Origin: Bifidobacterium sp. ESL0769
GTDB taxonomy: Bacteria; Actinomycetota; Actinomycetes; Actinomycetales; Bifidobacteriaceae
Reading direction: 5' to 3'
Assembly (NCBI RefSeq): GCF_029395495.1
Contig: NZ_CP113918.1
Span: forward strand, 868,001-932,000
Length of the DNA stretch: 64,000 nucleotides
A program made the translations under genes and the position numbers. Position 1 is the first letter of the stretch. The number at the start of each line of letters is the position of its first letter. Below the pieces are notes generated by a model, which had not been told where the DNA came from, made no database searches, and worked only from the letters and a program-made list of their open reading frames with translations. This document shows positions 3,798 to 18,613 of this stretch, in pieces.

Positions 3798-3950
3798 ATT
3801 TCTAAGTGTGGGTTGGAGAATTTAGCTTACGTTCTTGTGTGTTTTACAATGATACGCACAATCATATTTGGTTTTGATTTAGAGCCTTATTTTATTGTGA
3901 ATGTGGTTTTGAATTTCTTCATTATAGATTTAATGCCTTTGATCTTTAAA

Positions 3951-3986
3951 GAGCAGGTTGCACTAGAACTATAGTGCAACCTGCTC
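3951..3986 (-). terminator. Perfect 15-bp hairpin, terminator of the DUF262 operon
   Basis: GAGCAGGTTGCACTA at 3951-3965 pairs perfectly with TAGTGCAACCTGCTC at 3972-3986 around a six-base loop. It sits 24 bases beyond the stop of the minus-strand gene at 4011 and is followed on that strand by TTTAAAG. It separates the convergent ychF and DUF262 units. Confidence 0.65.
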
Positions 3987-4010
3987 TACTTCGGGTTTTA
4001 GATACCTCGA

Positions 4011-6425
4011 TTAATTATCGCTTTGAGAAGAAAGTATTTTTTCTATTATTTGTATTGCTTCTTTCGTTGTGTCATAATAATCTGTTTTTCCAGCATTGGT
4101 AATTGTTATAACTGGGATAGCATCATAAATTCCAGAATCATTTTTGGTGATTATGTATTCTTTACCAACAGCAATATGTGCATTACCTTTGGAAACCGAG
4201 AGATATTTAAATGGTTTATCGTATTTGTCTCCAGGATATAAACGTCCTACATATACATATAAAGTGCAATCAGCTTCATGTTTAAGTTCCCCACAAATAA
4301 CGCATGCGTCAAGCTCACTGTTCCGGCCGTTTAATTGTGTATTATTGCCGATAGGCAGATAGCATATCTTATCTTCGATTCGGTATTGTTTCAATGAACC
4401 TAAGTAAGCCCAAGTTTCGGGATGCTCAATCAATGCGCGAGATTGCCAATCTTGTCTGTTTGAATCCCATTGATATTCTTCGGTTATTTGGTTCAGAATT
4501 GGAATTATCTCTGAAGTAGTCAAGTGATTGCAGTCTTCAATTCGTTGAAGTATGTCGTCATATAAATCACGAATTAGATATCGTTTCTCATCTGGAGGAT
4601 TTCGACGATTTCCGTCTCTGAGCAAGTTTTTCCAACTAATAGATCTTGTAAAGCTTCCTTCTCTAGTGAGATAACTATAAATACTGCTTTGCTTTAAGGA
4701 ATAATCTCCTTTTGTCAGTAAGGCACGATGGAAAGCTACAGATAGTTCTTCTGTTTCCTCGTCAGGGAATATCACAGAAGTAAGCGCGACATATTGATTG
4801 AATTTATCGAGTAGATTATCTTGAGTAAGAGCAGTGTTCTTAGTGGTTTTGTCAATGTTGATGAATGCGAAAAGAAAACCGATTTTACCTTGGAAATAAG
4901 TTATATCTTCAGCTTTCTCGATAGCCTCTGTCCAATCCGTGCTTTTAGCAATGAGCCATGACTTCAATTCTTCTTCCTCTATTTGATCATGGGGAGTGAA
5001 TCCTTGAATATCGGGGAATTGGGCAAAATAATTAATAAGATTATCCGCATAGGGTTGGAAACTTGCAACTGCTTTAACGGCTTGCGTATACTGCCCGAGT
5101 GTATTGTATCCTTGCCAAATTTGTGCAGCTTCGGATAAATGAGTAATGATGCGATTCCATTGTTTCCAGGATTTTGCCTCTGGCTGTTTATGAAGAGCAT
5201 ACATGCCATCAACATAAGTCATTGCTGACTCCAACCGCATACGGTCACCGTAGTCGATTGATTGATTAGGATCACTGATATGACGAGTGATGTGGACGAT
5301 TTCATCAAGAGAGTCCTTTTGAGAAACATAATCGAGATAGTGGGATATTTTGTGTAGTGTTTCGATGCAGATGGTTTTTGCATTTTCTGGAATGCCGCAT
5401 TCATAATCAGATAAACGACGTTGGTGTGTTATTTCTTCAGCTAGTATTTCCGAAGGGAGCTTATAATTGGTGTCGGCTTTTATTCTTTCTGCCCATTGAT
5501 TCCATAGACTCCAATTTAGGAATTGCATAAACCAAGCGTCGTATTTATTTCTATTATCGTTAGCAGTATTGTTATTTGCTGCATCCCAGAAGAAATCTGT
5601 CCATGCGCCATCCATTTTTTGACGAAAATCAAGGTTTTCTCGATCAGGCAACAGGTCTTTAGATTTTTCTTCAAGTTCAGCCTTTAAACTTTCGAAATCA
5701 CTCAGTTGTTTGCCTCTGGCATTCATTTTTATATATAGTTCGTCGCCATTGCCGATGTCTTCAATGTCAAGCCATTCGAATCGGATTGGGCAGTCGGCCC
5801 CAGTTAATAATGCCCATTGATTAGGATTTGATATTACTGATTTTCCTCTGATTTCATCTAGTACCACAAGCGCTGAAATAATTGTGGGATCATACAGAAA
5901 ATCTGGACGGAACCAGTGTTTTTCTTCAATAAAAGAAGAAAGATGCTGGTGGTTATTGTCGGTTTGAGACCACATGGCAATGTCTCGTATGATTCTTTCT
6001 TGACTCATCAGCTCGAAAAAGTCTTTTGCGGTTTGTCTGGTCTCATAAGAAAAGCGACTGAGGACATTGACAGCTTCAGTAACATCTGCTTCCGGGGTAT
6101 CAACAAGCATTTGCACAAGAGCACTCCAGTAAATGAAATAGAGAGTGGTAAGTCGTTGTTGCCCGTCCAGTGGTTTGCAGATTGGAACAATATCTCCTTG
6201 GGATGTTGTGTCAATTTCTCCATATATAAAATTAAAGCTGAAGTATTTCCCGCTGATTAGATGTTCTTTGACTTCATCTAACACTCCTGATCGAACCGAG
6301 TTAGTAGCTTTATCTGATCTACCGTAGACATAGTCGCGCTGGATAGTTGGAATATGAATGGCATAGTGACTTATGAGTTGCCAAAAAGTGATTGATTGAC
6401 CGTTTTGGAATGGTATGTCGTTCAT
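4011..6425 (-). CDS. DUF262-domain protein (GmrSD-like), 804 residues
   Basis: The N-terminus carries the DUF262 signature: IPTIQRDYVYGR near residue 30 and PLDGQQRLTTLYF near 85. This ParB/sulfiredoxin-like fold hydrolyses nucleotides in GmrS-type modules. Unlike its operon partner it shows no clear C-terminal HNH (DUF1524) motif; the last 100 residues hold one CVICGE pair and otherwise unknown sequence. The start overlaps the upstream ORF by four bases (ATGA), so the two are translationally coupled. Base composition is far more AT-rich than the chromosome, suggesting transfer. GmrSD-family proteins restrict modified phage DNA; a defence role here is inferred from family and pairing. Confidence 0.8.
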   Translation of the reverse strand: MNDIPFQNGQSITFWQLISHYAIHIPTIQRDYVYGRSDKATNSVRSGVLDEVKEHLISGKYFSFNFIYGEIDTTSQGDIVPICKPLDGQQRLTTLYFIYWSALVQMLVDTPEADVTEAVNVLSRFSYETRQTAKDFFELMSQERIIRDIAMWSQTDNNHQHLSSFIEEKHWFRPDFLYDPTIISALVVLDEIRGKSVISNPNQWALLTGADCPIRFEWLDIEDIGNGDELYIKMNARGKQLSDFESLKAELEEKSKDLLPDRENLDFRQKMDGAWTDFFWDAANNNTANDNRNKYDAWFMQFLNWSLWNQWAERIKADTNYKLPSEILAEEITHQRRLSDYECGIPENAKTICIETLHKISHYLDYVSQKDSLDEIVHITRHISDPNQSIDYGDRMRLESAMTYVDGMYALHKQPEAKSWKQWNRIITHLSEAAQIWQGYNTLGQYTQAVKAVASFQPYADNLINYFAQFPDIQGFTPHDQIEEEELKSWLIAKSTDWTEAIEKAEDITYFQGKIGFLFAFINIDKTTKNTALTQDNLLDKFNQYVALTSVIFPDEETEELSVAFHRALLTKGDYSLKQSSIYSYLTREGSFTRSISWKNLLRDGNRRNPPDEKRYLIRDLYDDILQRIEDCNHLTTSEIIPILNQITEEYQWDSNRQDWQSRALIEHPETWAYLGSLKQYRIEDKICYLPIGNNTQLNGRNSELDACVICGELKHEADCTLYVYVGRLYPGDKYDKPFKYLSVSKGNAHIAVGKEYIITKNDSGIYDAIPVITITNAGKTDYYDTTKEAIQIIEKILSSQSDN

Positions 6426-6682
6426 GCTGTTTTATCCTCACCGTTAAGATAGTTGCTGATAGTTTTGATGATGCCGTAAGGTCCGTGAAGGTAGTCCTCA
6501 CGATCTTTTGCGCTCCAAATGGAGAAGTTATCAGGATTGTCTGTATAATATTTGAGAAATACATTTTTGGTACAAGGTGGTACGAATGTTGTATTGCGGT
6601 CTGCCTCTATAATCCAGCGTCGTTTTTCAAGGAAACTTGCATTTTGATATCCTCGATTAATTTTGGCAGAAAGCAACGCCAT
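6422..6682 (-). pseudogene. C-terminal part of the frameshifted DUF262-DUF1524 protein
   Basis: The 86-residue ORF opens MALLSAKINRGYQNASFLEK and continues EADRNTTFVPPCTKNVFLKYY. That is the typical C-terminal end of DUF1524-bearing DUF262 proteins (the stretch after the 'N-L-LL-NRSY' motif), not an independent gene. The frame is open further upstream and reads RDFLRDEDENNISN directly into it, overlapping the end of the preceding ORF. A one-base slip at the six-A run complementary to 6762-6767 would join the two into one protein of about 628 residues. It could be a mutation, a sequencing error or a site of ribosomal slippage. Confidence 0.7.
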
Positions 6683-6711
6683 GTTGCTGATGTTATTTTC
6701 GTCTTCATCCC

Positions 6712-8307
6712 TCAGAAAATCTCGTATTTGTTGTTTATTCCGATCCCAAAAATTGTGACAGTTTTTTCTGTAAAATCGTCTGATTCCAAGAACTCTTGAA
6801 TAATACTTATTAGTTTATTTCGAGTGTTTTGTGTCTGGAGAGAGTTGAAAGATTCAGATGTTGTACTTAAGATTAGTTCCTTTAGATCTTTAAAGAATTG
6901 TTGTCGTATCTGATTAGCGGTTAAACTATTTTCTTTCTTATTTTTATTTATCTCTTCATCGGTTGGCGGGCCACCAGCTATCGCATGTATGTGTTCTATG
7001 TCCCATTTGTCTTTCTTATATAGATCAAATGGGAATCGTGTTTTTGAACTTGTGGTGCTATTAATGGTCAGTAGGTTAAAAAGCAACAAAGCATTACGAA
7101 TCAAGTTTTGGGTATTGGATTTGGGGTCATTATATTCAAGCTGCTCAATTTGTTGTGGTTCGTTACCATATTCTTTAAGTGAATTTCGGATCTTGTTCCG
7201 GATGTGCTCGCGCAATTGAGATTTATCCAGCCCAGAAAATTCTGCATATAAATCGATGATTTTGCTTTTAGGAGTTGTATATTTTTGATTTCCTCGGCAT
7301 GCAATAAGGTATCCAAAAAGATGATAAAGGTCGTTACTCTGATACCAGTTTTCTAGGTTTGCAAAAATTTCCTTGCAGCTACTCCACATTTCTCGGAGTA
7401 TTCCTTTACCGGCGTTATTCTTATTTGAAGAGTTATAAATATAAGTAAACATAGCATAGGGGTTGTCAAGATTTTGTGTTTCTGGTTTCGTATTTTGAAT
7501 GCTTAACCAGATGTCGAAAATCAGATCCATGCGGGTGGAATAGGTATCGCGTTCATCTCCTGTAAGGAAATACCAGAACTCATCGTTTTGTAGTTGTTGC
7601 TCCATATGATTCCATTCAATGGCTATAGGAGTCTGCTCATGTCGTTTTATGATTTCTGAGTCACTGAGCAATAAAGCTTTTACAAGCTCTGCATTGGTTA
7701 GAGGAATTTTTCCTTCATTGATTTTTCTGAACATATCGATTGAGTCAGTAGATGAAGGAACCTCATACCAGATAACCTTAACGTTTTTAATAACTTGACA
7801 CCAAAATCGGTAAAGATCAGGTTTTTCTTTCTGATGCTCATTAGCCCAACTATCGATGCAATCAAAAGCCTGAGACATAAAATAGAAATCGGGATTGTCC
7901 AATGCTTTTTGTCGGTAAGCTTTGTTGGTAAGACTTAGCGATTCTAGAAATTCCTCGCTGTTTTGCCTTGTTTCATAGGTAATGGTGTACTTGACCCCAT
8001 TTTCCACAACATCACAATAGCGCCCAAGAATATACAACGTGGTGAGTCGTTGTTGTCCGTCAATGACTTCATAGACATTGTTTTCGCGGTGCCGGACGAC
8101 GATTGGTTGAAGACAGTATTGTAAATTCTTATCATTATCAAAATATGGGCTTAAATCGTCCATTAGTGTATTAATTTCGGTTTTGCCCCAGCGATATCCG
8201 CGCTGATAAGAAGGTACTGAGAAACAGTAGTTTTCGTCTTGTTTATCTGGCTTTAAATTTTGTATGGATCTCATACGAATTTGAGTATTAGATAACGGCT
8301 GTGTCAT
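6712..8307 (-). CDS. DUF262-DUF1524 (GmrSD-like) nuclease, N-terminal and HNH part; frameshifted
   Basis: The protein begins with the DUF262 signature (SYQRGYRWGK near residue 35, EVIDGQQRLTTLY near 82). Near residue 435 it carries WDIEHIHA, the HNH-like motif of DUF1524. This is the domain order of GmrSD type IV restriction enzymes and SspE-like proteins. The ORF stops early, and the expected family C-terminus lies in the -1 frame downstream (6422-6682). Start: the ATG at 8307 is spaced better from AAGGA than the one at 8313. It is the first gene of a two-protein operon with the DUF262 gene at 4011. The DNA is strongly AT-rich, marking a transferred segment. Confidence 0.78.
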   Translation of the reverse strand: MTQPLSNTQIRMRSIQNLKPDKQDENYCFSVPSYQRGYRWGKTEINTLMDDLSPYFDNDKNLQYCLQPIVVRHRENNVYEVIDGQQRLTTLYILGRYCDVVENGVKYTITYETRQNSEEFLESLSLTNKAYRQKALDNPDFYFMSQAFDCIDSWANEHQKEKPDLYRFWCQVIKNVKVIWYEVPSSTDSIDMFRKINEGKIPLTNAELVKALLLSDSEIIKRHEQTPIAIEWNHMEQQLQNDEFWYFLTGDERDTYSTRMDLIFDIWLSIQNTKPETQNLDNPYAMFTYIYNSSNKNNAGKGILREMWSSCKEIFANLENWYQSNDLYHLFGYLIACRGNQKYTTPKSKIIDLYAEFSGLDKSQLREHIRNKIRNSLKEYGNEPQQIEQLEYNDPKSNTQNLIRNALLLFNLLTINSTTSSKTRFPFDLYKKDKWDIEHIHAIAGGPPTDEEINKNKKENSLTANQIRQQFFKDLKELILSTTSESFNSLQTQNTRNKLISIIQEFLESDDFTEKTVTIFGIGINNKYEIF

Positions 8308-8473
8308 TTGCATCCTTACATAGGATAATATATTTAATTGTCATATAAATTATAGGCTTAAGTGTCTATATATAGTATGTCCAAATCTAGTAATTTGTGA
8401 CAATCTTATTGCCGATAATTTTTGATACTAGGTAGTATCTTTTATGACGATTTTCTCCCGGAATGCTTTCTAT
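8308..8473 (-). promoter_or_regulatory. AT-rich leader of the DUF262 operon
   Basis: About 160 very AT-rich bases separate the Fic gene stop from the DUF262 start. Several TATA-like runs (TATATATAG, TATAAATTATAG) could serve as the operon's -10 element; none stands out. Confidence 0.3.
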
Positions 8474-9208
8474 TTAAATTTTGCTTGACTGGTTTCTTAT
8501 ACGATTTTTGTTCCAGTTAGTCAGCCAATTGATGAGGAATATGTCATCGTCTAAGTACCAAGTGCTCAGCTTGTCATTGAACGTTTCGCGGTCTGGCGGC
8601 TCCACTGGCACGGCGAGCACATCGGATGAGCCCAGTTTGAGCAGTAGCCCATTGGCGGCGAGCAGGACCGTACGTTTGTTGCCATCTCCGAATGGTTGCA
8701 TTTTCGCCAGTGTGGCGAACAGATGTGAAGCCTGATTCAGCGCTTGCGAAGCTTTCAGAGGCTTTGTTGTATCGAGGGTGTCTAGAGACAATGTTGTATC
8801 GTCGTTTGAAACTTGATTCAGTTCCTGTTCAATTGCCGCGGCAGAAGGTACCGGTGGAGTATAAGTGCCTCGGTGAGTGAAGACAATAACGTTTTCAGCA
8901 GTTCTTAAAACGCCAGGTTCCATTGCAGCAGTGCGGGTCATCTTTGCGTTGATACCGGTGAACCAGTCCAAATCCATGGGACGGGTCGAGTAATCGTATT
9001 CAATGACGTAAGAAGAGGCATCTTTCAAATCGCAAAGCAATACATAATCATTACGTGACCCCACTACCTTGGGATTGCCGGTATGCAGAAAATCCTCGGT
9101 AGCCATCAGTGAGGTATTGAGCCCATCAAAGGTGCGCCCCATCCGATAGAGCAATCCTGCGAGTCCTTTGACCGTCATCAGGGGAGAGGCGTTGTGCCGC
9201 GTCGTCAT
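8474..9208 (-). CDS. Fic/DOC-family protein with a Gln in place of the catalytic His
   Basis: A 244-residue protein; near residue 180 it reads MQPFGDGNKRT, which matches the Fic active-site loop HxFx(D/E)GN(G/K)R except that Gln stands at the catalytic His position. Fic enzymes transfer AMP or other phosphate-containing groups to proteins; the His is the general base, so classical AMPylation would be impaired unless another His (SHLFATL, nearby) substitutes. No obvious inhibitory [S/T]xxxE[G/N] motif was seen. The start at 9208 is chosen because AAGGAGAG lies just before it; an in-frame ATG at 9232 would put that site inside the gene. Lies in the AT-rich island, upstream of the DUF262 operon and in the same direction. 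Confidence 0.75.
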   Translation of the reverse strand: MTTRHNASPLMTVKGLAGLLYRMGRTFDGLNTSLMATEDFLHTGNPKVVGSRNDYVLLCDLKDASSYVIEYDYSTRPMDLDWFTGINAKMTRTAAMEPGVLRTAENVIVFTHRGTYTPPVPSAAAIEQELNQVSNDDTTLSLDTLDTTKPLKASQALNQASHLFATLAKMQPFGDGNKRTVLLAANGLLLKLGSSDVLAVPVEPPDRETFNDKLSTWYLDDDIFLINWLTNWNKNRIRNQSSKI

Positions 9209-9366
9209 AATTGCTCTCCTTGTTGATGTCATAAATCAAGATTCCATTGTGAAACATTACGATTCACAGTGACTTTTCGATTATAGAGGATATCAGGAAA
9301 GAGTTTTCAAGATTACAGATTTCCCCTACAATGAGATTTAGAGCTAGGACTTAAAGAGGTGATCAG
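9209..9366. promoter_or_regulatory. Divergent promoter region, Fic gene / DUF4160 gene
   Basis: 158 bases between divergent starts, AT-rich, and so holding promoters for both genes. No clear boxes or repeats were assigned. Confidence 0.35.
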
Positions 9367-9633
9367 ATGCCAGAAGTAAGTAGATTCTTCGGAATCATTA
9401 TAAAGATGATGTATCAGGATGAAGGCAAACATCATAAACCACATGTGCATGTAAAATATGGTGATTTCAAAGCATCGATTGGCATTGATGGTGAAGTGCT
9501 GGCTGGTTCTTTACCGGAAAAGCAATATAAACTAGTAGCTGCTTGGCTCGAATTGCATGAGGAAGAGTTGTATGGTGCATGGAATGAAGCTGTAGAAGGT
9601 AAGCCTTTTGCCAAGATTAAGCCGCTGTCTTAA
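9367..9633 (+). CDS. DUF4160 protein (88 residues)
   Basis: The sequence matches the DUF4160 pattern: an N-terminal MPEVSRFFGI, then HHKPHVHVKYGDFKASI with its run of His residues, then LPEKQYKLVAAWLELHEEEL. It is the usual length for the family. AGAGGTGA precedes the ATG. DUF4160 genes are very often followed directly by a DUF2442 gene, as here (11-base gap), which has led to suggestions of toxin-antitoxin-like units; the biochemical role is unknown. The pair lies in the AT-rich accessory island. Confidence 0.85.
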   Translation: MPEVSRFFGIIIKMMYQDEGKHHKPHVHVKYGDFKASIGIDGEVLAGSLPEKQYKLVAAWLELHEEELYGAWNEAVEGKPFAKIKPLS

Positions 9634-9644
9634 GGAGATTTTCT

Positions 9645-9956
9645 ATGTTTGTACAAAATGGGATTGTTTATGCTGACTCTCCAATTAAAGAGATGGAGGT
9701 ACGTGATGCCCGTGTAACCGGCGACCATATCATGGTGGTGACGTTTTCGAACGGAGAGACACGACTTTGCGATTTTACCGAGATGTTTGATGATGTTCCT
9801 GCGTTTGCTCCATTACGAGATGAAGCCGTTTTCGAGGATTTTCGGATAGATGATGGTGTCTTGACATGGCAGGACGGATCAATCGATATCGCTGCTTCAT
9901 ATCTTTATAATCATTCGTATGAATACGATGTCCGTGCTCGGCTTGTGACGGCGTAA
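9645..9956 (+). CDS. DUF2442 protein (103 residues)
   Basis: A small protein with the DUF2442 pattern: a short beta-rich segment with TFSNGETRLCDF, then the C-terminal GVLTWQDGSIDIAASYLYNHS. AAGGAGA precedes the ATG. It is the second gene of a two-gene operon with the DUF4160 gene and is probably cotranscribed. Pairs of this kind are widespread and mobile; function is not established. Confidence 0.85.
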   Translation: MFVQNGIVYADSPIKEMEVRDARVTGDHIMVVTFSNGETRLCDFTEMFDDVPAFAPLRDEAVFEDFRIDDGVLTWQDGSIDIAASYLYNHSYEYDVRARLVTA

Positions 9957-10034
9957 AGAAATAAAGGGAATAAAAAGCCGGTTGTTAACCAGCATGAGAG
10001 TGAACCTGTTAGCTAGTGCAGAAAGCAGGTTTCT

Positions 10035-10337
10035 TTGAGCGAGATTGTTACTATGAAACTCGGTTCTCGCAAGACGGTTCGACATGAAGAGTTGCCCGAT
10101 GGCGGCTACCGCGAATTCGTAGGCTGGCAGGGGGGTATGTCGCCCAAAGAAGTGTGGCAGGCAGGTAACAGCTGGTGGAAGCTTGAGCCAGATCGCGCTG
10201 TACGCTGCGATTTGGCGGTCACTCTCAATCCTGGAAACGTTGTCGTTTGCGTAGCCAAGATTCGTGGCCTGATTAAGCGCGAGGATATGCGCATGGGTTT
10301 CATTGGTGAACCGGTGGAAAGCAAATACGATGCATAG
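10035..10337 (+). pseudogene. Small hypothetical protein cut by an in-frame amber codon
   Basis: The ORF gives 100 residues from a TTG (or 94 from the ATG at 10053), rich in Trp and Gly (FVGWQGGMSPKEVWQAG) and ending at TAG (10335-10337). The same frame continues open past the TAG for 35 codons, LGKSLKRNNSKNPIAYFDECDVLVSDE and on, to a TAA at 10443-10445. This extension has normal composition and looks like the rest of the same protein, so a sense codon such as CAG (Gln) has probably mutated to amber. No family is recognised. Confidence 0.5.
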
Positions 10338-10590
10338 CTTGGCAAGAGTCTCAAGCGCAACAATTCCAAGAATCCGATTGCTTATTTTGACGAGTGCGAT
10401 GTCCTTGTTTCCGATGAAGTAAAGAAAAAGCACCAAGATTCTTAATCGCGAATAATTCACAAAACTAAAGTTGAAAGAAACAAGTTGTACATCCTCGGCG
10501 TACTTCCGCAGCGGTACTTATGGATTTGTTTGATTCCTATTTGTATTGGCATTGTCCTACTACCTGTTTCTTTAAAAATGAAGCAGATAA

Positions 10591-10869
10591 GTGAAGCCTG
10601 TTCAAAAAGATTCCGGGAACGGAAAGAAAGCGGGAGAACTTTCTCAAGGCTTGAGACGGATGCAAGAGAAATATGGTCAAGCGTTGAAGTTGATTTCGAA
10701 TGAATATCGTCATGCAAATGAATTAAGTTATTTCATTAAGCATTTAAAAAATAGTGATGATTCATTTGCTGATATTGCTGAACAATATGAGATTGAGAAC
10801 CTACATTGCTTTCAGTATGGGCTGTACGACACGCCGATAAATGTGATTTGTTTAACGGGAAAATTGTAA
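10591..10869 (+). CDS. Hypothetical small protein (92 residues)
   Basis: A GTG-started ORF encoding a mostly helical, charged protein (ELSQGLRRMQEKYGQALKLI, then NEYRHANELSYFIKHLKN). The ribosome site is weak. An overlapping ORF in another frame (10485-10703) encodes a membrane-helix-like stretch, so either frame could be a remnant. No family was recognised; it may be the leftover of a larger gene in this decayed part of the island. Confidence 0.3.
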   Translation: MKPVQKDSGNGKKAGELSQGLRRMQEKYGQALKLISNEYRHANELSYFIKHLKNSDDSFADIAEQYEIENLHCFQYGLYDTPINVICLTGKL

Positions 10870-10973
10870 TTCAATATCCTTTCAAACCTCAATCGACACA
10901 ACGCTTGAGCGTTTAAACAAATCGTCATTCAGTGTATAGTGACGCAGCTCACTATCGTGTATTAGATTGACCC

Positions 10974-11118
10974 GGTAAACGAAACGGACTATGCTTTGAA
11001 ATTAGCCAAGGAGGGGACACCTCGAGAAATCAAGGTGTATAACTGCCCGAGTTTTTTGGGGTGCTGTCCGTCGGGCGTACTTAACGAAGAGTATCGTCAG
11101 CTAATCGACGGACTGTAA
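10974..11118 (+). pseudogene. C-terminal gene remnant upstream of the carbamoyltransferase
   Basis: Reading one frame from just after a stop near 10970 gives about 48 residues, ALKLAKEGTPREIKVYNC continuing through two adjacent Cys to [11 protein letters not shown] and a TAA at 11116. It has no good start or ribosome site. The composition looks like coding sequence and resembles the tail of a longer protein, so a truncated gene at the island edge is likely. No family assigned. Confidence 0.3.
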
Positions 11119-11128
11119 GGTGGTTATT

Positions 11129-12148
11129 ATGACTGAATTGTCCCATTTCCAAGGGCGTAGTTTGCTCTCTACACGTGATTTCACAAAAGAAGAACTCATG
11201 TGGCTTATTGGGTTTGCGATCCATCTCAAGGAATTGAAGCGCAACAACATCCCTCATCGTTATCTTGAAGGCAAGAACATCGCGTTGCTCTTCGAGAAGA
11301 CCTCGACGCGTACTCGTTCCGCTTTCACCACCGCAAGCATCGATCTCGGCGCTCATCCCGAATTCCTCGGCAAGTCGGATATCCAGCTGGGCAAGAAGGA
11401 GACCGTACGTGATACCGCGTTGGTCTTGGGCTCCATGTTTGACGGCATTGAATTCCGTGGATTCAAGCACGAGCACGTTCTGCAGCTTGCGAAGTATTCC
11501 GGGGTACCGGTCTGGAACGGGCTTACCGATCAGGAGCACCCGACGCAGATGCTCGCCGATTTCATGACGATTCTTGAGGAGTTTGGCACTCTTGAGGGTA
11601 AGACGTTGGCTTATTGCGGACAAGGTCGTAACAATGTCCAGAATTCGCTGATGATTACCAGTGCCATTCTCGGTGTGAATTATGTGAATGCGACTCCTGA
11701 AGATCTGGCTCCGGATCCGGCCATTGTGAAGGTCGCCGAAGGCTTCGCAGCAAAGTCGGGGTCGACCATCAAGGTTACTTCCGACCCGGTCGAGGCTGTG
11801 CGTGATGCCGATGTCATCTACACGAATGTATGGGCTGCGATGGGTGAAGAGGCGCAGTTCTCCGAACGTGTTCGCGTGATGCGTCCGTATCAAGTCAATT
11901 CTGAATTGCTCTCCAACGTTCGTAACCCCAACTACATCATTCTGCATTGCCTGCCTGCGTTCCATAACGCCGAGACCGATTACGCCAAGGATATCCAGGA
12001 GCGTTTCGGAATCAGCGAGATGGAAATTACCGACGAGTGCTTCTATTCGTCGCACGCACGTCAGTTCCAAGAAGCTGAGAACCGTATGCATAGCATCAAG
12101 GCTATCATGGCGGCGACCTTAGGGAATCTTTACGTCCCTAGCATCTGA
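11129..12148 (+). CDS. arcB: Ornithine carbamoyltransferase-like protein with altered SMG loop
   Basis: A 339-residue carbamoyltransferase with the carbamoyl-phosphate site STRTRS near residue 55, HPTQ near 133 and HCLPAF near 270. Overall it looks like catabolic OTC (ArcB), which splits citrulline to ornithine and carbamoyl phosphate. Two positions differ from known OTCs: the loop expected as DVWxSMGE reads NVWAAMGE (11825-11845), so Asp is Asn and Ser is Ala. These residues hold the alpha-amino group of ornithine. The carboxylate-binding GRNN motif is kept. The true substrate may therefore lack an alpha-amino group. The ATG at 11129 follows AAGGTGG. First gene of the deiminase-like cluster. 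Confidence 0.85.
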
Positions 12149-12179
12149 TGCATTGATGCTCCTCTGATTATTTTCTATT

Positions 12180-12229
12180 CCCGGACCGGGCTCCTGTAAT
12201 TTCCTCGTATTATGGGAGCCTGGCCGGGG
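12180..12229 (+). terminator. Long GC-rich hairpin after the carbamoyltransferase gene
   Basis: CCCGGACCGGGCTCC pairs with GGGAGCCTGGCCGGG across about 19 bases with a small internal mismatch. No long T-run follows, so it may attenuate rather than end transcription before the carrier gene. Confidence 0.5.
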
Positions 12230-12250
12230 CATAACTTTAGCCATTCATCT

Positions 12251-12273
12251 GGTACCAGTGTGGGTACCAGTAT
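12251..12273 (+). repeat. Direct repeat GGTACCAGT ahead of the carrier gene
   Basis: GGTACCAGT occurs at 12251-12259 and again at 12263-12271, 19 bases before the carrier start. The longer form GGTACCAGTAT recurs at 23878-23888 ahead of the histidine phosphatase gene. It could be an operator or chance. Confidence 0.3.
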
Positions 12274-12291
12274 ATGAAAAAGGATTTTCTT

Positions 12292-13833
12292 ATGTCACAA
12301 ACTACTGTTGCAAAATCTGATGAAAAGAAGGATGTCAAGCCCAAGCGTCGCAAGTCGATGCCGAATACTTATGTCATTCTCTTCCTCATTATCGTAGTAA
12401 TTGCCGTTCTCACATGGTTTGTTCCCGGCGGAGCCTATAAGGCGGATGCCACGGGCCACGCGATTTCAGGTACGTATCACAGCGTGAAGTCGACGCCGCA
12501 GGGCATATGGGATATGCTCATGGCGCCTATCACCGGTATGCTCGGCTCCAAGACCATTGATCCGGCGATTCCGATTTCGCTGTTCATTATGCTTTTCGGC
12601 TCCTTCCTCGAAATGATGGAAGAGAGCGGGGCTCTGAAGATCGGTCTGCGCAAGATCGCAATTGCGAGCCAGAAGAAGCTGCTGCTGCTCATCGTGGCAC
12701 TTACCAGCATCATGAGTGTCTTGGGAACCATCGAAGGTGCATATGAGGAAGGCATCGTCTACCTGCTGATGTTCCTGCCATTGCTTCTGGCGATGGGACT
12801 CGATACCGTCACCGGCACCATGATTATCGTGCTTGGTACTCAGGCAGGCTGCCTGGCGTCTACGATTAATCCGTTCGCTACTGGAATCGCTTCGGGCATC
12901 GCTCGTATTTCCGTCGGCGACGGCCTTGGCTTGCGTGTCATCATGCTGGTCGTATTCACTGCACTGGTCTCGTTCCTCATTTTCACCTATGCCAAGCGCG
13001 TTCAGAAGGACCCCTCCCGTTCAATGCAGTATTACCGCAGAGACAAGGATCTTGAGCTGTTCCCGACCGCAGAGGATGACTCTCATCTTTCCCTTTCCGG
13101 AGCTCAGAAGGCTTCCTTGTGGCTGTTCGTCGCGACCTTCGTGATTATGGTTGTCTCGCTCATTCCCTGGACGGGACTCAACTCGAAGTGGACGTTCTTC
13201 GAGACCTTCGCTACTTGGATTGGCAAGACGCCGGTGCTTCGCGTGTTGCTTGGCTCTGACATCACCCCGTTCGGCTCTTGGTATTTCGCTGAGCTTTCGA
13301 TGCTGCTGCTGGTCATGTCGTTCATCATCGGCAAGGTCATGGGTTACACCACCGACAAGATTGTCAACATCATCATTCGTGGCGCCTCCGGTCTGGTGTC
13401 CACGGCGTTGATCGTGGCGATGGCCCGTGGTATCCAGGTCGTTATGGATGACGGCCAGATTACGCCGACCATCCTGCACATGGGTGAGAGCTCGTTGGCC
13501 GCGCTGCCTCCGATCGCATTCATGATCGTCTCACTCATCTTCTACACCCTTATTGCCTGCCTCATCCCCAGCTCAACTGGACTTGCGGCTGCGACCATGG
13601 CCATCATGGCATCGTTGGCCGGCTTCGCACACGTTCCTGCGGCGTTGATGGTTACGATTTACTGCATGGCCTTGGGCTTGGCGAAGATGATTACACCAAC
13701 ATCCATCGTGCTGATGACGTGCCTTCAGGCCGCGCATATTTCGTATGGGAAATGGATACGTTTTATTGCGCCGTATTGGGCGATCCTCTTTGGTACATGC
13801 TGCGTCATCCTTGTCATTGCGGCGCTCATCTGA
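12292..13833 (+). CDS. YfcC/ArcD-like membrane carrier (513 residues)
   Basis: A polytopic protein with about 12 hydrophobic segments, starting after a basic N-terminus at NTYVILFLIIVVIAVLTWFV. The pattern MPNTYVI...TWFVPGGAY and the internal GTIEGAYEEGI and PSSTGLAAATMAIMA stretches fit the YfcC family, which includes carriers adjacent to arginine deiminase genes. It probably moves the guanidino substrate in and the amino product out. The ATG at 12292 follows AAAGGA; an upstream in-frame ATG at 12274 has no site. It lies between the carbamoyltransferase and amidinohydrolase genes, supporting a joint role; the substrate is not known. Confidence 0.8.
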   Translation: MSQTTVAKSDEKKDVKPKRRKSMPNTYVILFLIIVVIAVLTWFVPGGAYKADATGHAISGTYHSVKSTPQGIWDMLMAPITGMLGSKTIDPAIPISLFIMLFGSFLEMMEESGALKIGLRKIAIASQKKLLLLIVALTSIMSVLGTIEGAYEEGIVYLLMFLPLLLAMGLDTVTGTMIIVLGTQAGCLASTINPFATGIASGIARISVGDGLGLRVIMLVVFTALVSFLIFTYAKRVQKDPSRSMQYYRRDKDLELFPTAEDDSHLSLSGAQKASLWLFVATFVIMVVSLIPWTGLNSKWTFFETFATWIGKTPVLRVLLGSDITPFGSWYFAELSMLLLVMSFIIGKVMGYTTDKIVNIIIRGASGLVSTALIVAMARGIQVVMDDGQITPTILHMGESSLAALPPIAFMIVSLIFYTLIACLIPSSTGLAAATMAIMASLAGFAHVPAALMVTIYCMALGLAKMITPTSIVLMTCLQAAHISYGKWIRFIAPYWAILFGTCCVILVIAALI

Positions 13834-13974
13834 GCGTTTCCCGCACTGATATTTCACACTGATATTCCTACAGAGAAGTGTTTTTTCTCTGCTTATCAGA
13901 TAAGGTTTTGTTTAGTCTTAAAAACTAGACAAATAAAAAATAAAGGTATAAATAATAAGAAAGGTTGGGCCATC

Positions 13975-14844
13975 ATGAATGCCCCAGCAGATACAAGCAA
14001 AACATATGTAACCAATGCGACTAATCCTCTGAAGAAGGTGATGATGTGTTCACCGGTGGGCTATAAGTTCAACGATATCAACGTCATCACCACCGAGTGG
14101 ATGAAGAAGGGTGACACCGAAAAGAACGACGTCATGGTCCGTGAATGGCAGACCCTGGTCGATGCCTATAAGGATAACGGCATCGAGGTCGTTCAAGTCG
14201 AGCCGCATCCTGAGTGCGAGGTCATGACGTTTTCCCGTGACTATGGCTGCATGGTCAAGGAAGGCGCCATCATCGGCCACTTCCGTCACCCGGCACGTCA
14301 GATTGAAACCAAGTACTATGAGGCGAAACTCAAGGAAATGGGCGTTCCGATCATCGCCAGGGTCAACGCCGGCTGCATGGAAGGCGGAGACTTCTGGATG
14401 CTTGATGAGCACACGCTGGCTTGGGGTGAAGTCGACCGCACCGACGAAGCCGGTGTCGCCAACCTCCGTGAGCAGCTGTGGAAGTACGGCTATACCGTCG
14501 TAGGTGTTCCTGTCAACCCGGACAACCTCCATCTTGACATGTGCTTCAACATCGTCGCCCCGCAGGTCGCGCTGGCCGTCATCGATCAGCTTCCTTATCA
14601 GTTCGTGAAGGCTCTGAAGCGTCGTAACTTCGAGCTCATCCCTGTGGATGCTCAGGATGTGTTCAAGCATGGCTGCAATGTCGAGGCAATCGGCAACGGC
14701 AAGGTCATTGCCATCGAGAAGAACAAGCACATCAACGATAAGATGCGTGCTCTCGGCCTCGATGTCATTGACGTGCCCTTCGATCAGATTCTGCACGCCG
14801 GCGGTGGTCCTCACTGCCTGACTCAGCCTATTGAGCGTCCGTGA
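13975..14844 (+). CDS. DDAH/arginine deiminase-like amidinohydrolase (289 residues)
   Basis: A member of the guanidino-modifying (pentein) superfamily with its catalytic set visible: Glu in EGGDFWML near residue 138, His in HLDMCFNIV near 183, and nucleophile Cys in GGGPHCLTQP near 281. At 289 residues it is about the size of dimethylarginine dimethylaminohydrolase and far shorter than true ArcA (about 410). It should hydrolyse a guanidino group to a ureido group. It replaces arginine deiminase in a cluster that otherwise has carbamoyltransferase and carbamate kinase. AAAGGTTGGG precedes the start, and the next gene begins 14 bases after its stop. The substrate is open: arginine, methylarginine or a hydroxy analogue. 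Confidence 0.85.
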   Translation: MNAPADTSKTYVTNATNPLKKVMMCSPVGYKFNDINVITTEWMKKGDTEKNDVMVREWQTLVDAYKDNGIEVVQVEPHPECEVMTFSRDYGCMVKEGAIIGHFRHPARQIETKYYEAKLKEMGVPIIARVNAGCMEGGDFWMLDEHTLAWGEVDRTDEAGVANLREQLWKYGYTVVGVPVNPDNLHLDMCFNIVAPQVALAVIDQLPYQFVKALKRRNFELIPVDAQDVFKHGCNVEAIGNGKVIAIEKNKHINDKMRALGLDVIDVPFDQILHAGGGPHCLTQPIERP

Positions 14845-14858
14845 GAAAAGGCTCTGTA

Positions 14859-15848
14859 ATGCATATTCTTATCTGTGATTATCCGGATTCAATGATGCCG
14901 GACCATCGCTTGGAAATGCAGACGCTGAGAGACGGATTGGGCGACGACACCGTCATCGATGTACTCGAGTATGACGATTCGCGACGTGACGAGTTTCTGC
15001 AAGCCGTGAGCAAGGCAGATGCGCTGTTGACTGCGTTCGTCAATGTCGATGCTTCGGTGATGGATGCCGCGCCTAATCTCAAGGTCGTTTCGTTGAATTC
15101 CACAGGATATGATCGTGTGGATCTCAAGGAAGCGACCAAGCGGGGCATCGGTGTATGCCCTGTAGGCGAATACTGCACAACGGATGTCGCGGAAGCGGCT
15201 GTTGCCTTCGTGCTGGCCCTGCACAAAAGGATTAAGCCTTATGGTCAGCAAATCGACAGGGATCATGTATGGGATTTCTCTGCATTCCCGGCTTGGCCGC
15301 GTTTGCAGGACCAGAGCGTGGGTATCTTCGGTTTCGGCAAGATCGGCAAGGCGACTTCGCGCAAGCTGATGGGCCTGGTCAAAGACATCTCTGTTTATGA
15401 TCCCTATATCAGCAATGAGTCCGCTCTCGCTGCAGGGGTAACCATGAAGGACAAGGATGAGCTGCTTGCAACAAGCGACGTCATCATCAATATCATGAAC
15501 CTCAACGATACTAACAGCGGCTTCTTCAACGCCGATGCATTTGCAGCGATGCAAAAAAAGCCGTTGTTCGTCAATGTCAGCCGTGGCCTGTGTGTAGATG
15601 AGTCTGCACTGTTGGAAGCACTCGATTCCGGACAGATTCGTGGCTATGCGGCCGATGTGTTGAGCGACGAGACGCCCGACTTGGCCAATAATGCCTTGGT
15701 CGGCAGGGACAACGTGCTCCTGACCCCGCATTCTGCGTTCTATTCCACAACCTCAATGGAAGCTTTGCAGCGTTTGTCTTGCGAGAACATCGTGCACTTC
15801 CTGAAAGGTGAAAAGGAAAGGGTGTTCAAGCTCGTTAATGCAGTGTGA
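14859..15848 (+). CDS. D-2-hydroxyacid dehydrogenase, NAD-dependent
   Basis: A 329-residue D-isomer-specific dehydrogenase. The dinucleotide fold shows GFGKIGKATS near residue 155, and the catalytic triad is Arg in NVSRGL, Glu in VLSDETPD and His in TPHSAFYS. These enzymes interconvert 2-oxo acids and D-2-hydroxy acids. Such a gene does not belong to the standard arginine deiminase pathway, yet it lies 14 bases after the amidinohydrolase and 32 before carbamate kinase, clearly in one operon. It may reduce or oxidise a 2-oxo/2-hydroxy form of the guanidino or amino compound handled here. The ATG at 14859 follows AAAAGG; an upstream GTG overlaps the previous stop. Confidence 0.85.
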   Translation: MHILICDYPDSMMPDHRLEMQTLRDGLGDDTVIDVLEYDDSRRDEFLQAVSKADALLTAFVNVDASVMDAAPNLKVVSLNSTGYDRVDLKEATKRGIGVCPVGEYCTTDVAEAAVAFVLALHKRIKPYGQQIDRDHVWDFSAFPAWPRLQDQSVGIFGFGKIGKATSRKLMGLVKDISVYDPYISNESALAAGVTMKDKDELLATSDVIINIMNLNDTNSGFFNADAFAAMQKKPLFVNVSRGLCVDESALLEALDSGQIRGYAADVLSDETPDLANNALVGRDNVLLTPHSAFYSTTSMEALQRLSCENIVHFLKGEKERVFKLVNAV

Positions 15849-15880
15849 AACTCCGTTCGCACTGGAAAGGAAATAAAAAT

Positions 15881-16828
15881 ATGTCTACAGATCCACGTAG
15901 CGTACTCGCGCTTGGTGGCAACGCTTTGGGGAACACACCTCAGGAACAGCTCGAGCGGGTTCGAGATACCGCCAAAGCGCTCATTGAGATGATCATGCAT
16001 GACAATGAGATTATTGTCACCCATGGCAACGGCCCACAGGTCGGCATGATTCAGAAGGCGTTTTCCGTCGCGTCCCAGACGGATCAGAAAATACCTTCGA
16101 TGCCATTGCCTGAGTGTGGGGCGATGAGCCAAGGCTACATTGGATATCATTTGCAGCAAGCACTGCAGAATGAGATCAAGCGGCGCGGCAAGCAATGGCA
16201 TGTCTCTTCGCTTGTCACGCAGATTGAAGTCGATCCCGCTGATCCGGCATTCAACAATCCGACGAAGCCTGTTGGAGCTTTCCTCACCGAAGAACAGATG
16301 AAGAAAGCGTCCCAAGAGTCGCCCGATCTGAAGTTTGTCGAGGATTCGGGCAGGGGATGGCGTCAAGTAGTCGCCTCGCCGGCCCCGTTGCGAATCGTCG
16401 AAAAGCCGTCGATTCTCAATTTGCTTGATTCCGAGTTCATAGTGATTTGCTCCGGAGGCGGAGGGGTTCCCGTTGTCAGCAATAAGGATGGCATGCTTCA
16501 GGGTGTTCCCGCCGTCATCGACAAGGACCTCGCTGCGGCCGTTTTGGCCGAGGATGTCGGCGCGCAGACGCTGTGCCTTCTGACTGCGGTCGACAGGGTG
16601 GCGATTAACTTCGGCACTCCGCAGCAGCAAGATCTTAACGATCTGACAACCGCCGAGGCCCGCAAGCTGTGCAAAGAGGGCCAGTTTGCTCCCGGTAGCA
16701 TGCTTCCCAAGGTGCTTGCGGCTATACGCTTCGCGGAATCTGGTCCGGGTAAGGTTGCCGTCATCGGTTCGTTGCAGCAAGCGGCAGCGACGCTTGCAGG
16801 TACCGCCGGGACACGCATCCACGCCTGA
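15881..16828 (+). CDS. arcC: Carbamate kinase
   Basis: A 315-residue amino-acid kinase family member of standard length, with VLALGGNALG at the N-terminus, VTHGNGPQVGM near 50 and ICSGGGGVPVV near 200. It converts carbamoyl phosphate and ADP to ammonia, carbon dioxide and ATP, giving the energy yield of deiminase pathways. The ATG at 15881 follows GGAAAGGA; an in-frame GTG at 15845 overlaps the previous gene and lacks a site. It is the last enzyme gene of the cluster. Confidence 0.95.
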   Translation: MSTDPRSVLALGGNALGNTPQEQLERVRDTAKALIEMIMHDNEIIVTHGNGPQVGMIQKAFSVASQTDQKIPSMPLPECGAMSQGYIGYHLQQALQNEIKRRGKQWHVSSLVTQIEVDPADPAFNNPTKPVGAFLTEEQMKKASQESPDLKFVEDSGRGWRQVVASPAPLRIVEKPSILNLLDSEFIVICSGGGGVPVVSNKDGMLQGVPAVIDKDLAAAVLAEDVGAQTLCLLTAVDRVAINFGTPQQQDLNDLTTAEARKLCKEGQFAPGSMLPKVLAAIRFAESGPGKVAVIGSLQQAAATLAGTAGTRIHA

Positions 16829-16857
16829 AACTGATTATATGTGGCAAGGAGAAGACT

Positions 16858-16904
16858 CACAGTGGTGATGGGTAGCGCATGGTATGCCGCCCATCACCAC
16901 TGTG
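16858..16904. repeat. Perfect 15-bp inverted repeat between arcC and the symporter
   Basis: CACAGTGGTGATGGG at 16858-16872 pairs perfectly with CCCATCACCACTGTG at 16890-16904 over a 17-base loop. Neither side ends in a T-run, so it may be a weak terminator, an RNA-processing stem or an operator. Confidence 0.5.
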
Positions 16905-17047
16905 GGTTGTATCTAGTGTCCCGGCGGAATTGAGTTGAAAGTTCTCAAAATTTTCGTGTCGTTGGGTCAATGTGTTCCTGGTGGTGTTTGTTTTATGGTT
17001 CAAATTTATAGATTTTTCATTAATCATGAGAATCGAAGGTGATTTTC

Positions 17048-18613
17048 TTGAAATCCTTGCATATATTGGATTTTATTGTTATCGGATTGTATTTCGTAGT
17101 CCTGATAGGTATAGGGCTTTGGTCGTTGCGTAAAACCAAAAATCGCGATGACTACCTCGTTGCTGGCCGCCGTTTGCACTTTCCGTTGTTCTTCGGGTGT
17201 ATGGCGGCCATGGCTGTAGGTGGTGCCGTTACCGTCGGCGGAACCGAGAAAGGCTATTCCGACGGCATCGCCGGTGCCTGGGTGGGTACTTCGCTCGGTT
17301 TGGGCCTTATAGCGCTCGGAATCTTGGTCTCCAGCAAGCTCAGTAAGCTGAGCGCATTGTCAATCAATGAAGTGATCGAACGCAACTATGGTGCCAGTGC
17401 CCGTGTTTTCGGGGCCGTTCTCACCATCATCTACACGGTTTCTCTGACAGTGGTTCAGGTGGTATCGATGGGCGCCATCGTCTCTGGCATCTTCAAGATT
17501 CCGAAAGTCTGGGCCATCATCGGTTCGGGCCTGGTCGTGGTTTTCTATACCTTCCTTGGCGGTATGTGGTCGGTGACCATGACCGATATCGTCCAATTCA
17601 TCATCAAAACGCTTGGCGTGATGATCTTGGTGCCTATTTTCGTGCTCAGCAACCCTGCTGTCGGGGGAATTGCCGGATTCGTCCAGCACATCCCTGCTAC
17701 CCATTGGAATCTGGGTGCCTACGGTTTCTCAGGAACACTTCATTGGATTCTACTTTATGTTCCCGGTCTGGTAATCGGCCAGGATATGTGGCAGCGCATC
17801 TTCACGGCCAAGACGCCGAAGATCGCACGCTGGGGCACGATTACCGCCGGCATCTATGCCATCTTCTATTCACTGGCTGCGGTCATGCTGGGAATGTTCG
17901 TGTGTGCGGCCGGATTCAAATTGAGCGATCCCTCGCTGGCATTCGAAACGGGTATCTCCGCTTTCCTGCCCACTGGTCTTGTCGGTCTATTGCTTGCAGC
18001 GGCGCTTGCCGCGGCCATGTCGGTGGCATCGGGAACGATATTGGCCTGCTCGACGGTCATTTACAATGATTTGTATCTGCGTTTCGTCAAGGGCCAGAAG
18101 AGCTCCGAAGCCTCTGCCGTTTCCGATGGTCAGGATGCCAAAAACGACGTCAAGGCGGAAGCTGCGAATGAAGAAGCCAAAAAGAATCATGGCGGCAATG
18201 ATGTGTGGATCAATCGTGGAATCGCCATCGTCGTCGGCATCGTCATTATCGCTTTGTCGTTGCTGATCAGCGATATCTTCAAGGCGCTGGATCTTGCCTA
18301 CGGTTTCCTTTCCGGCTGTGTCTTCATCCCTGTGATTTTCTCCTTCGTATTGAAGAAGATCTCCCGTTTCGCCGGTTTCGCCTCGTTGTTCGCCAGTACG
18401 GCCGCCGTGTCCGTCACCATGATCTACGGTGAGCTGACCAAGCAGACCGAGTTTGCCGTCGGTGGCAATTGGCCCATTATTTTCGGAATTTCGGTAGGCC
18501 TTATCGTCTATCTCTTGGTGACGGCGCTTGACAAGCATAAGGTGACTCCGAACGTATCGGCGGATGAAGTGGAACCTGCAAAGGATGCCGTAGCCGTCGC
18601 AGATGCCTCGTGA
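17048..18613 (+). CDS. Sodium/solute symporter (SSS family)
   Basis: A 521-residue membrane protein opening DFIVIGLYFVVLIGIGLWS, with the family's DDYLVAGRR motif after the first helix and about 13 hydrophobic segments. A hydrophilic loop of about 40 residues (KGQKSSEASAVSDGQDAK and on) splits helices near residue 350. SSS proteins import sugars, amino acids or carboxylates with sodium. The start is taken as the TTG at 17048, seven bases after GAAGGT; a GTG at 17039 overlaps that site. It may supply the substrate of the cluster, though the palindrome before it suggests a separate transcript. Confidence 0.8.
   Translation: MKSLHILDFIVIGLYFVVLIGIGLWSLRKTKNRDDYLVAGRRLHFPLFFGCMAAMAVGGAVTVGGTEKGYSDGIAGAWVGTSLGLGLIALGILVSSKLSKLSALSINEVIERNYGASARVFGAVLTIIYTVSLTVVQVVSMGAIVSGIFKIPKVWAIIGSGLVVVFYTFLGGMWSVTMTDIVQFIIKTLGVMILVPIFVLSNPAVGGIAGFVQHIPATHWNLGAYGFSGTLHWILLYVPGLVIGQDMWQRIFTAKTPKIARWGTITAGIYAIFYSLAAVMLGMFVCAAGFKLSDPSLAFETGISAFLPTGLVGLLLAAALAAAMSVASGTILACSTVIYNDLYLRFVKGQKSSEASAVSDGQDAKNDVKAEAANEEAKKNHGGNDVWINRGIAIVVGIVIIALSLLISDIFKALDLAYGFLSGCVFIPVIFSFVLKKISRFAGFASLFASTAAVSVTMIYGELTKQTEFAVGGNWPIIFGISVGLIVYLLVTALDKHKVTPNVSADEVEPAKDAVAVADAS

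Follow-up and report, generated by a model that had tools for sequence, protein, structure and literature searches.

A six-gene deiminase cluster in a bifidobacterial genome

We analyzed a 64,000-nucleotide stretch of the 2.50 Mb genome of Bifidobacterium sp. ESL0769 (NCBI RefSeq assembly GCF_029395495.1, contig NZ_CP113918.1, positions 868,001 to 932,000 of the forward strand; hereafter the window), which carries a cluster of six genes for a carbamoyltransferase, a carrier, a deiminase, a dehydrogenase, a carbamate kinase and a symporter (Table 1). A first-pass annotation, made from the sequence alone, had read this cluster as a non-canonical deiminase operon that may act on a hydroxy- or oxo-analogue of arginine. 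Gene calls together with Pfam and NCBIfam profile matches confirmed that all six genes lie on the forward strand in the order it had given, and the gaps of 14 and 32 bases that it had reported on either side of the dehydrogenase are exact when the ATG codons at 14859 and 15881 are taken as starts. The remaining intergenic gaps measure 125, 141 and 210 bases. Because a scan of the locus gave no excess of promoter-like sites (7 versus 7.8 expected) or terminator-like sites (3 versus 9.0 expected) over expectation, we predict co-transcription from gene spacing only.

Table 1. Genes of the deiminase operon, in window coordinates. OTC, ornithine carbamoyltransferase; ADI, arginine deiminase; DDAH, dimethylarginine dimethylaminohydrolase; SSS, sodium:solute symporter family; aa, amino acids.
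Product	Coordinates	Strand	Details
Carbamoyltransferase, OTC family (OTCace)	11129..12148	+	339 aa from ATG; GTG at 11120 is an alternative start
YfcC/DcuC-family carrier, predicted substrate/product exchanger	12274..13833	+	PF03606, 309.6 bits
Predicted guanidino-acid deiminase, ADI/DDAH fold	13975..14844	+	289 aa
D-2-hydroxyacid dehydrogenase	14859..15848	+	329 aa; PF02826 150.5 bits and PF00389 86 bits, both above cut-offs
Carbamate kinase	15881..16828	+	315 aa; NF009007 351.4 bits (cut-off 266)
SSS protein, accessory transporter	17039..18613	+	PF00474; GTG start

The deiminase keeps its guanidine and carboxylate sites and replaces a substrate-contacting Asn

The statement that the 289-residue hydrolase is not ArcA held up, with a TIGR01078 score of 75.8 bits against a cut-off of 489.1, and across the whole genome PF02274 and TIGR01078 match at this locus only. 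The protein falls under the cut-offs of all seven NCBIfam models listed for ArgZ/AgrE, DDAH and ADI, including those for dimethylargininases (NF045659, 86.6 versus 300 bits; NF045660, 73.8 versus 340; NF045658, 37.1 versus 450) and for ArgZ/AgrE (NF052232, 66.1 versus 450; NF052231, 60.4 versus 1025). It retains the guanidine-site residues Asp89, Glu136, His186, Asp188 and Cys281 as well as the carboxylate arginines Arg108 and Arg155, all seven being invariant across a 33-sequence deiminase alignment, whereas ArgZ aligns an Asn with the catalytic Asp89.

The difference lies six residues before the catalytic Asp, where the window enzyme has Val83, not the substrate-contacting Asn of ADI or the Asp of DDAH. 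We take the Asn of ADI to serve the substrate amino group, and the DDAH residue at this position (Asp60/Asp72) is presumably an α-amino ligand. Among 120 homologues of the deiminase, 117 have Val at position -6 and two have Ile, with one sequence unmatched by the search pattern; Asn occupies it in all 18 ADIs matched by the pattern TRDP, and Asp in L011 and L012, the two background sequences whose DDAH-like FVED motif the pattern matched. Val83 is the equivalent of Asn155 in the ADI of M. arginini, which together with Leu44, Arg180, Arg232 and Gly392 contacts the amino and carboxylate groups of the substrate (PMC3474736). A role as a DDAH for methylarginines was rejected on the failed cut-offs and the missing Asp at -6. 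Separately, a related operon in Vagococcus (L075) has an extra DDAH-like gene (3829-4611, reverse strand) with Ser at -6, compared with Asp in the DDAH-like background.

The carbamoyltransferase loses the ornithine-amine ligand and keeps the carboxylate side

The window carbamoyltransferase exceeds the cut-off of the OTC model TIGR00658 (384.6 versus 280.85 bits) and lacks DxxxSMG, the ornithine-binding motif of OTC (PMC4581275). In its place it reads NVWAAMG (NxxxAMG, with N236 and A240 in 342-aa numbering), while the carboxylate-side Lys60 (FxKxSxRT) and Asn172 (the Asn167 equivalent) are kept along with HCLP. In Arabidopsis OTC bound to ornithine, N232, D293 and S297 bind the α-amine; the carboxylate contacts are N232, the backbone of M298 and, via water, K121 (PMC10765591). 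The closest solved relative, the catabolic OTC of Lactobacillus hilgardii (PDB 2w37, 462 bits), retains D and S (YTDVWVSMGE) where the window enzyme has N and A.

The agmatine deiminase pathway offers a precedent, applying the same logic to an arginine analogue with a re-specialized OTC-like enzyme. Agmatine deiminase itself belongs to a separate Pfam family, PF04371, and we rejected a putrescine/agmatine pathway for this operon on the retained carboxylate Lys/Asn pair of its carbamoyltransferase, which scores 245.4 bits against the cut-off of 500 of the putrescine carbamoyltransferase model TIGR04384, with its Lys kept and its loop reading NVWAAMG. Putrescine carbamoyltransferase is the mirror image of the window enzyme, having replaced the carboxylate Lys by Gln and kept the Asp in a DVWYG loop (PMC3282769), whereas the window enzyme keeps Lys/Asn and loses the Asp.

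We read the Lys, Asn, Asp and Ser positions as a four-letter signature and found the Asp lost in all 30 operon carbamoyltransferases, comprising the window enzyme and 29 others (22 Lys-Asn-Asn-Ala, 7 Lys-Asn-Met-Ser and 1 Lys-Asn-Asn-Ser), and kept in every one of the 23 distinct non-operon OTCs that share the Lys/Asn pair. Non-operon OTC-family members from 20 genomes that carry the operon have the Asp in 37 of 42 cases, counting matches of about 200 bits or more, excluding those in the aspartate-carbamoyltransferase range and fragments, and counting the identical L142 and L101 once. The window genome, too, encodes an ordinary OTC with Asp and Ser (KNDS; L123). The best 120 homologues of the window enzyme, itself included, divide into 71 KNNA, 46 KNDS and 3 near-variants (KNRA, DNNA and KN-gap-A), with none showing a mixed KNNS or KNDA signature, and none of 120 homologues of the Enterococcus-type operon carbamoyltransferase has the Asp.

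In a midpoint-rooted tree of 63 carbamoyltransferases (non-operon sequences L128, L133, L136 and L138-L142 left out), the window type forms a clade (100/99) that is nested with Lactobacillales OTCs retaining Asp and Ser (96/96 and 98/94). Outside those OTCs lies a second clade (100/99), formed by the Lactobacillales operon type. Barring a regain, this separation suggests at least two losses of the α-amino ligand among carbamoyltransferases that pair with the same deiminase. The KNNS enzyme of the more distant locus L073 groups with the Lactobacillales type in this tree; its neighbors are a deiminase of 49% identity that has Tyr at -6, and an APC permease. L073 and P0337-P0360, except P0340, make up a third Asp-less OTC-like group with a KNNS signature that includes entries from Listeria kieliensis and Scandinavium, its loop reading YGNxWxSMG in the five sequences inspected.

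A four-gene core, including the dehydrogenase, recurs across 30 further loci

We then looked for the gene set in other genomes, counting as further loci the 30 whose deiminase is of the same subfamily as that of the window; a scan of genome contigs gave 17 loci, and searches of four genome groups, each labeled by its anchor genomes (Coriobacteriia, Lactobacillales, Actinomycetales and Clostridia), added more. Loci L103-L108, L110, L111, L113 and L114 repeat operon genes already counted, and at L030, where ORFs were lost to overlap in the ORF-based tables, tblastn showed the operon to be complete. The YfcC carrier adjoins the deiminase in all 30. An OTC-family carbamoyltransferase lies beside it in 29, the contig stopping first in the other (L079), and a D-2-hydroxyacid dehydrogenase in 28, with no linked copy at L077 and L078. 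Several contigs end near the operon, and counts for the other neighbors are lower bounds: carbamate kinase beside the deiminase in at least 10 of the 30, an SSS symporter in or divergent to the module in at least 13, and a PucR-like regulator within 9 kb in at least 25 (regulator domains were tested in five examples). The proposed set thus does recur in other genomes, with four genes (carbamoyltransferase, carrier, deiminase and dehydrogenase) as its constant core and with carbamate kinase and the SSS protein found beside it less often. The arrangement is not due to chance. The association extends to sampled Coriobacteriia, where 16 of 246 genomes have the deiminase (at least 79% identity) and the same 16 have the window-type Asn/Ala carbamoyltransferase (at least 77%); the outliers are a 50% deiminase relative in G300 and a 55% carbamoyltransferase relative in G081.

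Known members of the D-2-hydroxyacid dehydrogenase family use 2-oxo or 2-hydroxy acids. The window dehydrogenase falls below the cut-off in all 21 NCBIfam models listed, glyoxylate reductase, D-lactate dehydrogenase and PGDH among them. With the dehydrogenase of an Enterococcus module as query, six of seven genomes show one match at 45-70% identity and all others at 33% or less, which marks the module dehydrogenase as a distinct subfamily. One of the two genomes with no dehydrogenase beside the deiminase (G428, locus L077) has an intact orthologue elsewhere at 67% identity. A passenger role for the dehydrogenase was rejected on its linkage in 28 of 30 loci and this one unlinked orthologue. The carbamate kinase scores just under the TIGR00746 cut-off (356.1 versus 358.25 bits).

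The operon usually accompanies the arginine deiminase pathway

Like the ArcA/ArcB/ArcC/ArcD pathway, the operon encodes a deiminase, an OTC-family carbamoyltransferase, a carbamate kinase and a carrier, and it is predicted to yield ATP at substrate level via carbamoyl phosphate. It differs from that pathway in its 289-aa deiminase, in the lost α-amino ligands and in having its own D-2-hydroxyacid dehydrogenase. The expectation that ArcA would be absent alongside it was borne out in the window genome itself but not among the 17 other carrier genomes, those behind the genome contig loci, of which 13 have ArcA above the curated cut-off; G070 has a full-length ArcA below the cut-off, and G065, G069 and G074 have none. 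We therefore rejected the operon as a replacement for ArcA. It would usually be an addition to the ADI pathway, and in the 13 carriers with ArcA a second L-arginine pathway would be redundant.

These data bear on whether the operon is an ordinary arginine deiminase pathway after all, with a short divergent ADI and a passenger dehydrogenase. The carbamoyltransferase does exceed the OTC equivalog cut-off and shares 63-66% identity with OTCs of Lactobacillales carriers, and the window genome has no ArcA. We nonetheless regard it as very unlikely, since the residues that bind or contact the α-amino group are lost in both enzymes, ArcA is present above cut-off in most other carriers, and the dehydrogenase is linked too constantly for a passenger.

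The predicted substrate is an α-hydroxy or α-oxo analogue of arginine

In two enzymes of the operon, the residues that read a carboxylate and a guanidine are kept and those that read an α-ammonium are lost, a combination that points to a guanidino acid without an α-ammonium group. The proposed absence of the α-ammonium is strongly supported by these residues, and the substrate most likely has guanidino and carboxyl groups and no α-ammonium. That it is a 2-hydroxy or 2-oxo compound is moderately supported: the near-constant D-2-hydroxyacid dehydrogenase makes argininate or 2-oxoarginine the best candidate. A five-carbon chain, the direction of the dehydrogenase and the direction of transport are weakly supported. 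The first-pass guess of a hydroxy- or oxo-arginine thus gains support from the loss of α-amino ligands in two different enzymes, and we think it probable, judging from these residues and the gene content, that the six genes specify a variant pathway of the arginine deiminase type, directed at the α-hydroxy or α-oxo form of arginine.

Three other substrates without a normally placed α-amino group were weighed. Deoxy guanidino acids (4-guanidinobutyrate or 5-guanidinovalerate, converted to a ureido acid and then to GABA or 5-aminovalerate with carbamoyl phosphate) would explain Val83 and N236/A240 by the absence of any α-substituent, and plasma 4-guanidinobutanoate showed a pattern similar to that of 2-oxoarginine in a faecal-transplant study (PMC11340759). 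The linked dehydrogenase, being of a family whose known members use 2-oxo or 2-hydroxy acids, argues against them, and we consider this pathway unlikely. A D-arginine pathway running through D-citrulline and D-ornithine, in which the swapped α-carbon would shift the amino group away from its usual ligands, fits the lost α-amino and kept carboxylate ligands equally well; it gives no role to the dehydrogenase found in 28 of 30 further loci, and with no racemase among the six operon genes it seems to us quite unlikely. Least probable is another α-N-blocked or modified arginine, such as N-α-acetylarginine or a methylated hydroxy analogue: the charged ligands would likewise be dropped for a blocked amino group, and the Vagococcus operon with its Ser-bearing DDAH-like gene would be in keeping with it, but the six operon genes include no deacylase and an acylated arginine would leave the dehydrogenase without a role.

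Several observations weigh against an α-hydroxy or α-oxo substrate. A D-amino acid, or a compound lacking any α-substituent, would account equally well for the lost α-amino ligands; an ammonium group could still donate a hydrogen bond to an Asn; and in ADI the main-chain carbonyls of Leu44 and Gly392 bind the amino group, a contact that sequence cannot reveal. Five of the 42 non-operon OTC-family sequences (two of the four in L136, plus L139, L140 and L141) also have no Asp, all five being without the carboxylate Lys as well. In the carbamoyltransferase tree several long branches meet, and the Lactobacillales type joins the rest at 94/69 only. At two of the 30 further loci the deiminase has no dehydrogenase next to it, and one of these two genomes, G595, has nothing above 28% identity anywhere. 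The redundancy argument fails in the four carriers without full-length ArcA, the window genome included, and the extra DDAH-like gene in Vagococcus may hint at methylarginines.

For an α-hydroxy or α-oxo arginine, we propose that the YfcC carrier, perhaps with the SSS symporter, would take up 2-oxoarginine and/or (R)-argininate, and that the dehydrogenase would reduce 2-oxoarginine to (R)-argininate with NADH. The deiminase would convert (R)-argininate to (R)-2-hydroxy-5-ureidopentanoate and ammonia, from which the altered carbamoyltransferase would produce carbamoyl phosphate and 5-amino-2-hydroxypentanoate by phosphorolysis. Carbamate kinase would then pass the carbamoyl phosphate to ATP and YfcC would swap the end product for fresh substrate, for a net yield of one ATP and one NAD+ per molecule. 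We favor reduction of 2-oxoarginine on two grounds: a hydrogen in place of the L-amino group would fit the hydrophobic Val83, and disposal of NADH benefits a fermenter. Whether the operon represents a new fermentative argininate (2-oxoarginine) deiminase pathway in this full sense is, in our judgment, an even call; such a pathway would depend on two new activities, (R)-argininate deiminase and 2-hydroxy-5-ureidopentanoate carbamoyltransferase, of which the latter would have evolved from OTC-family ancestors on two or more occasions through loss of the α-ammonium ligand. Coriobacteriia, Lactobacillales and scattered other bacteria would thereby use arginine analogues both for ATP and as a redox sink.

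Prior descriptions and occurrence of the candidate compounds

We recognized no description of such an enzyme or pathway in the open-access literature searched. The ADI and agmatine pathways are described in a study of E. lenta, whose main text contains no word starting with "guanidin" or "hydroxyacid" (PMC10234575). Public records, where they name these proteins, usually call them ornithine carbamoyltransferase and dimethylarginine dimethylaminohydrolase or arginine deiminase family protein, and sometimes nitrate reductase, so metabolic models would misread these genes. If true, the proposed pathway would add a third substrate class, α-hydroxy/oxo acids, to the arginine and agmatine of carbamoyl-phosphate-yielding deiminase pathways; it would predict two new enzyme activities, and it would mean that a two-residue switch in OTC and one deiminase residue alter specificity.

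Arginine analogues of this kind are known from animal faeces and human plasma. A list of uremic solutes includes 2-oxoarginine and argininic acid (PMC8745165, of which we used that list alone, as the article enters enzymes of arginine under "argininic acid"), and 2-oxoarginine and argininate were measured in cat faeces (PMC7407581). A bacterial sink for these uremic solutes would, if true, be of medical interest. Engraftment of Collinsella aerofaciens and Fusicatenibacter was linked to lower plasma 2-oxoarginine in the faecal-transplant study, an association that its authors call purely statistical (PMC11340759). The operon is present in one genome named C. aerofaciens (L027) and in 2 of 43 species genomes of the genus overall, and we therefore treat the transplant link as a lead only.

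Genomic setting and related clusters

The other genomes of the genus that we searched, 36 in number, all lack this deiminase, two of them matching only weakly through 427-aa ADI-like proteins, so the window genome probably gained it horizontally. The operon lies directly downstream of an A+T-rich stretch at 4001-12000 of the window (GC 0.38 and 0.45 in two 4-kb bins). Upstream of the operon, genes at 6712-9956 encode a GmrSD-N (DUF262) protein, a Fic-domain protein and a DUF2442 protein, and a 100-aa ORF with no Pfam match (10035-10337) sits between the DUF2442 gene and the operon. The A+T-rich stretch is likely a variable defence or mobile island.

Three other arrangements came up in the searches. 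Loci L124 and L125 (G071:C21 and G059:C15) have KNDG OTCs on stretches that also encode ArcA-like proteins of 425-427 and 234-257 bits and constitute another ADI variant. At L082, L083 and, more loosely, L145, deiminases of 40-43% identity with Asn at -6 lie near a class I/II aminotransferase and a D-2-hydroxyacid dehydrogenase with no OTC nearby; the L082/L083 type is possibly an arginine or citrulline transamination-reduction route. In Eggerthella sinensis, locus L136 (G062:C28:1-20000) holds four OTC-family paralogues with the unusual ornithine-site signatures INDM, QNDY, WNEY and ENSY, together with three PF04371 proteins, two amino-acid permeases, an MFS transporter and an amino-acid-kinase (carbamate kinase-like) protein, and from this gene content it looks like a multi-substrate guanidine/ureido utilization island.

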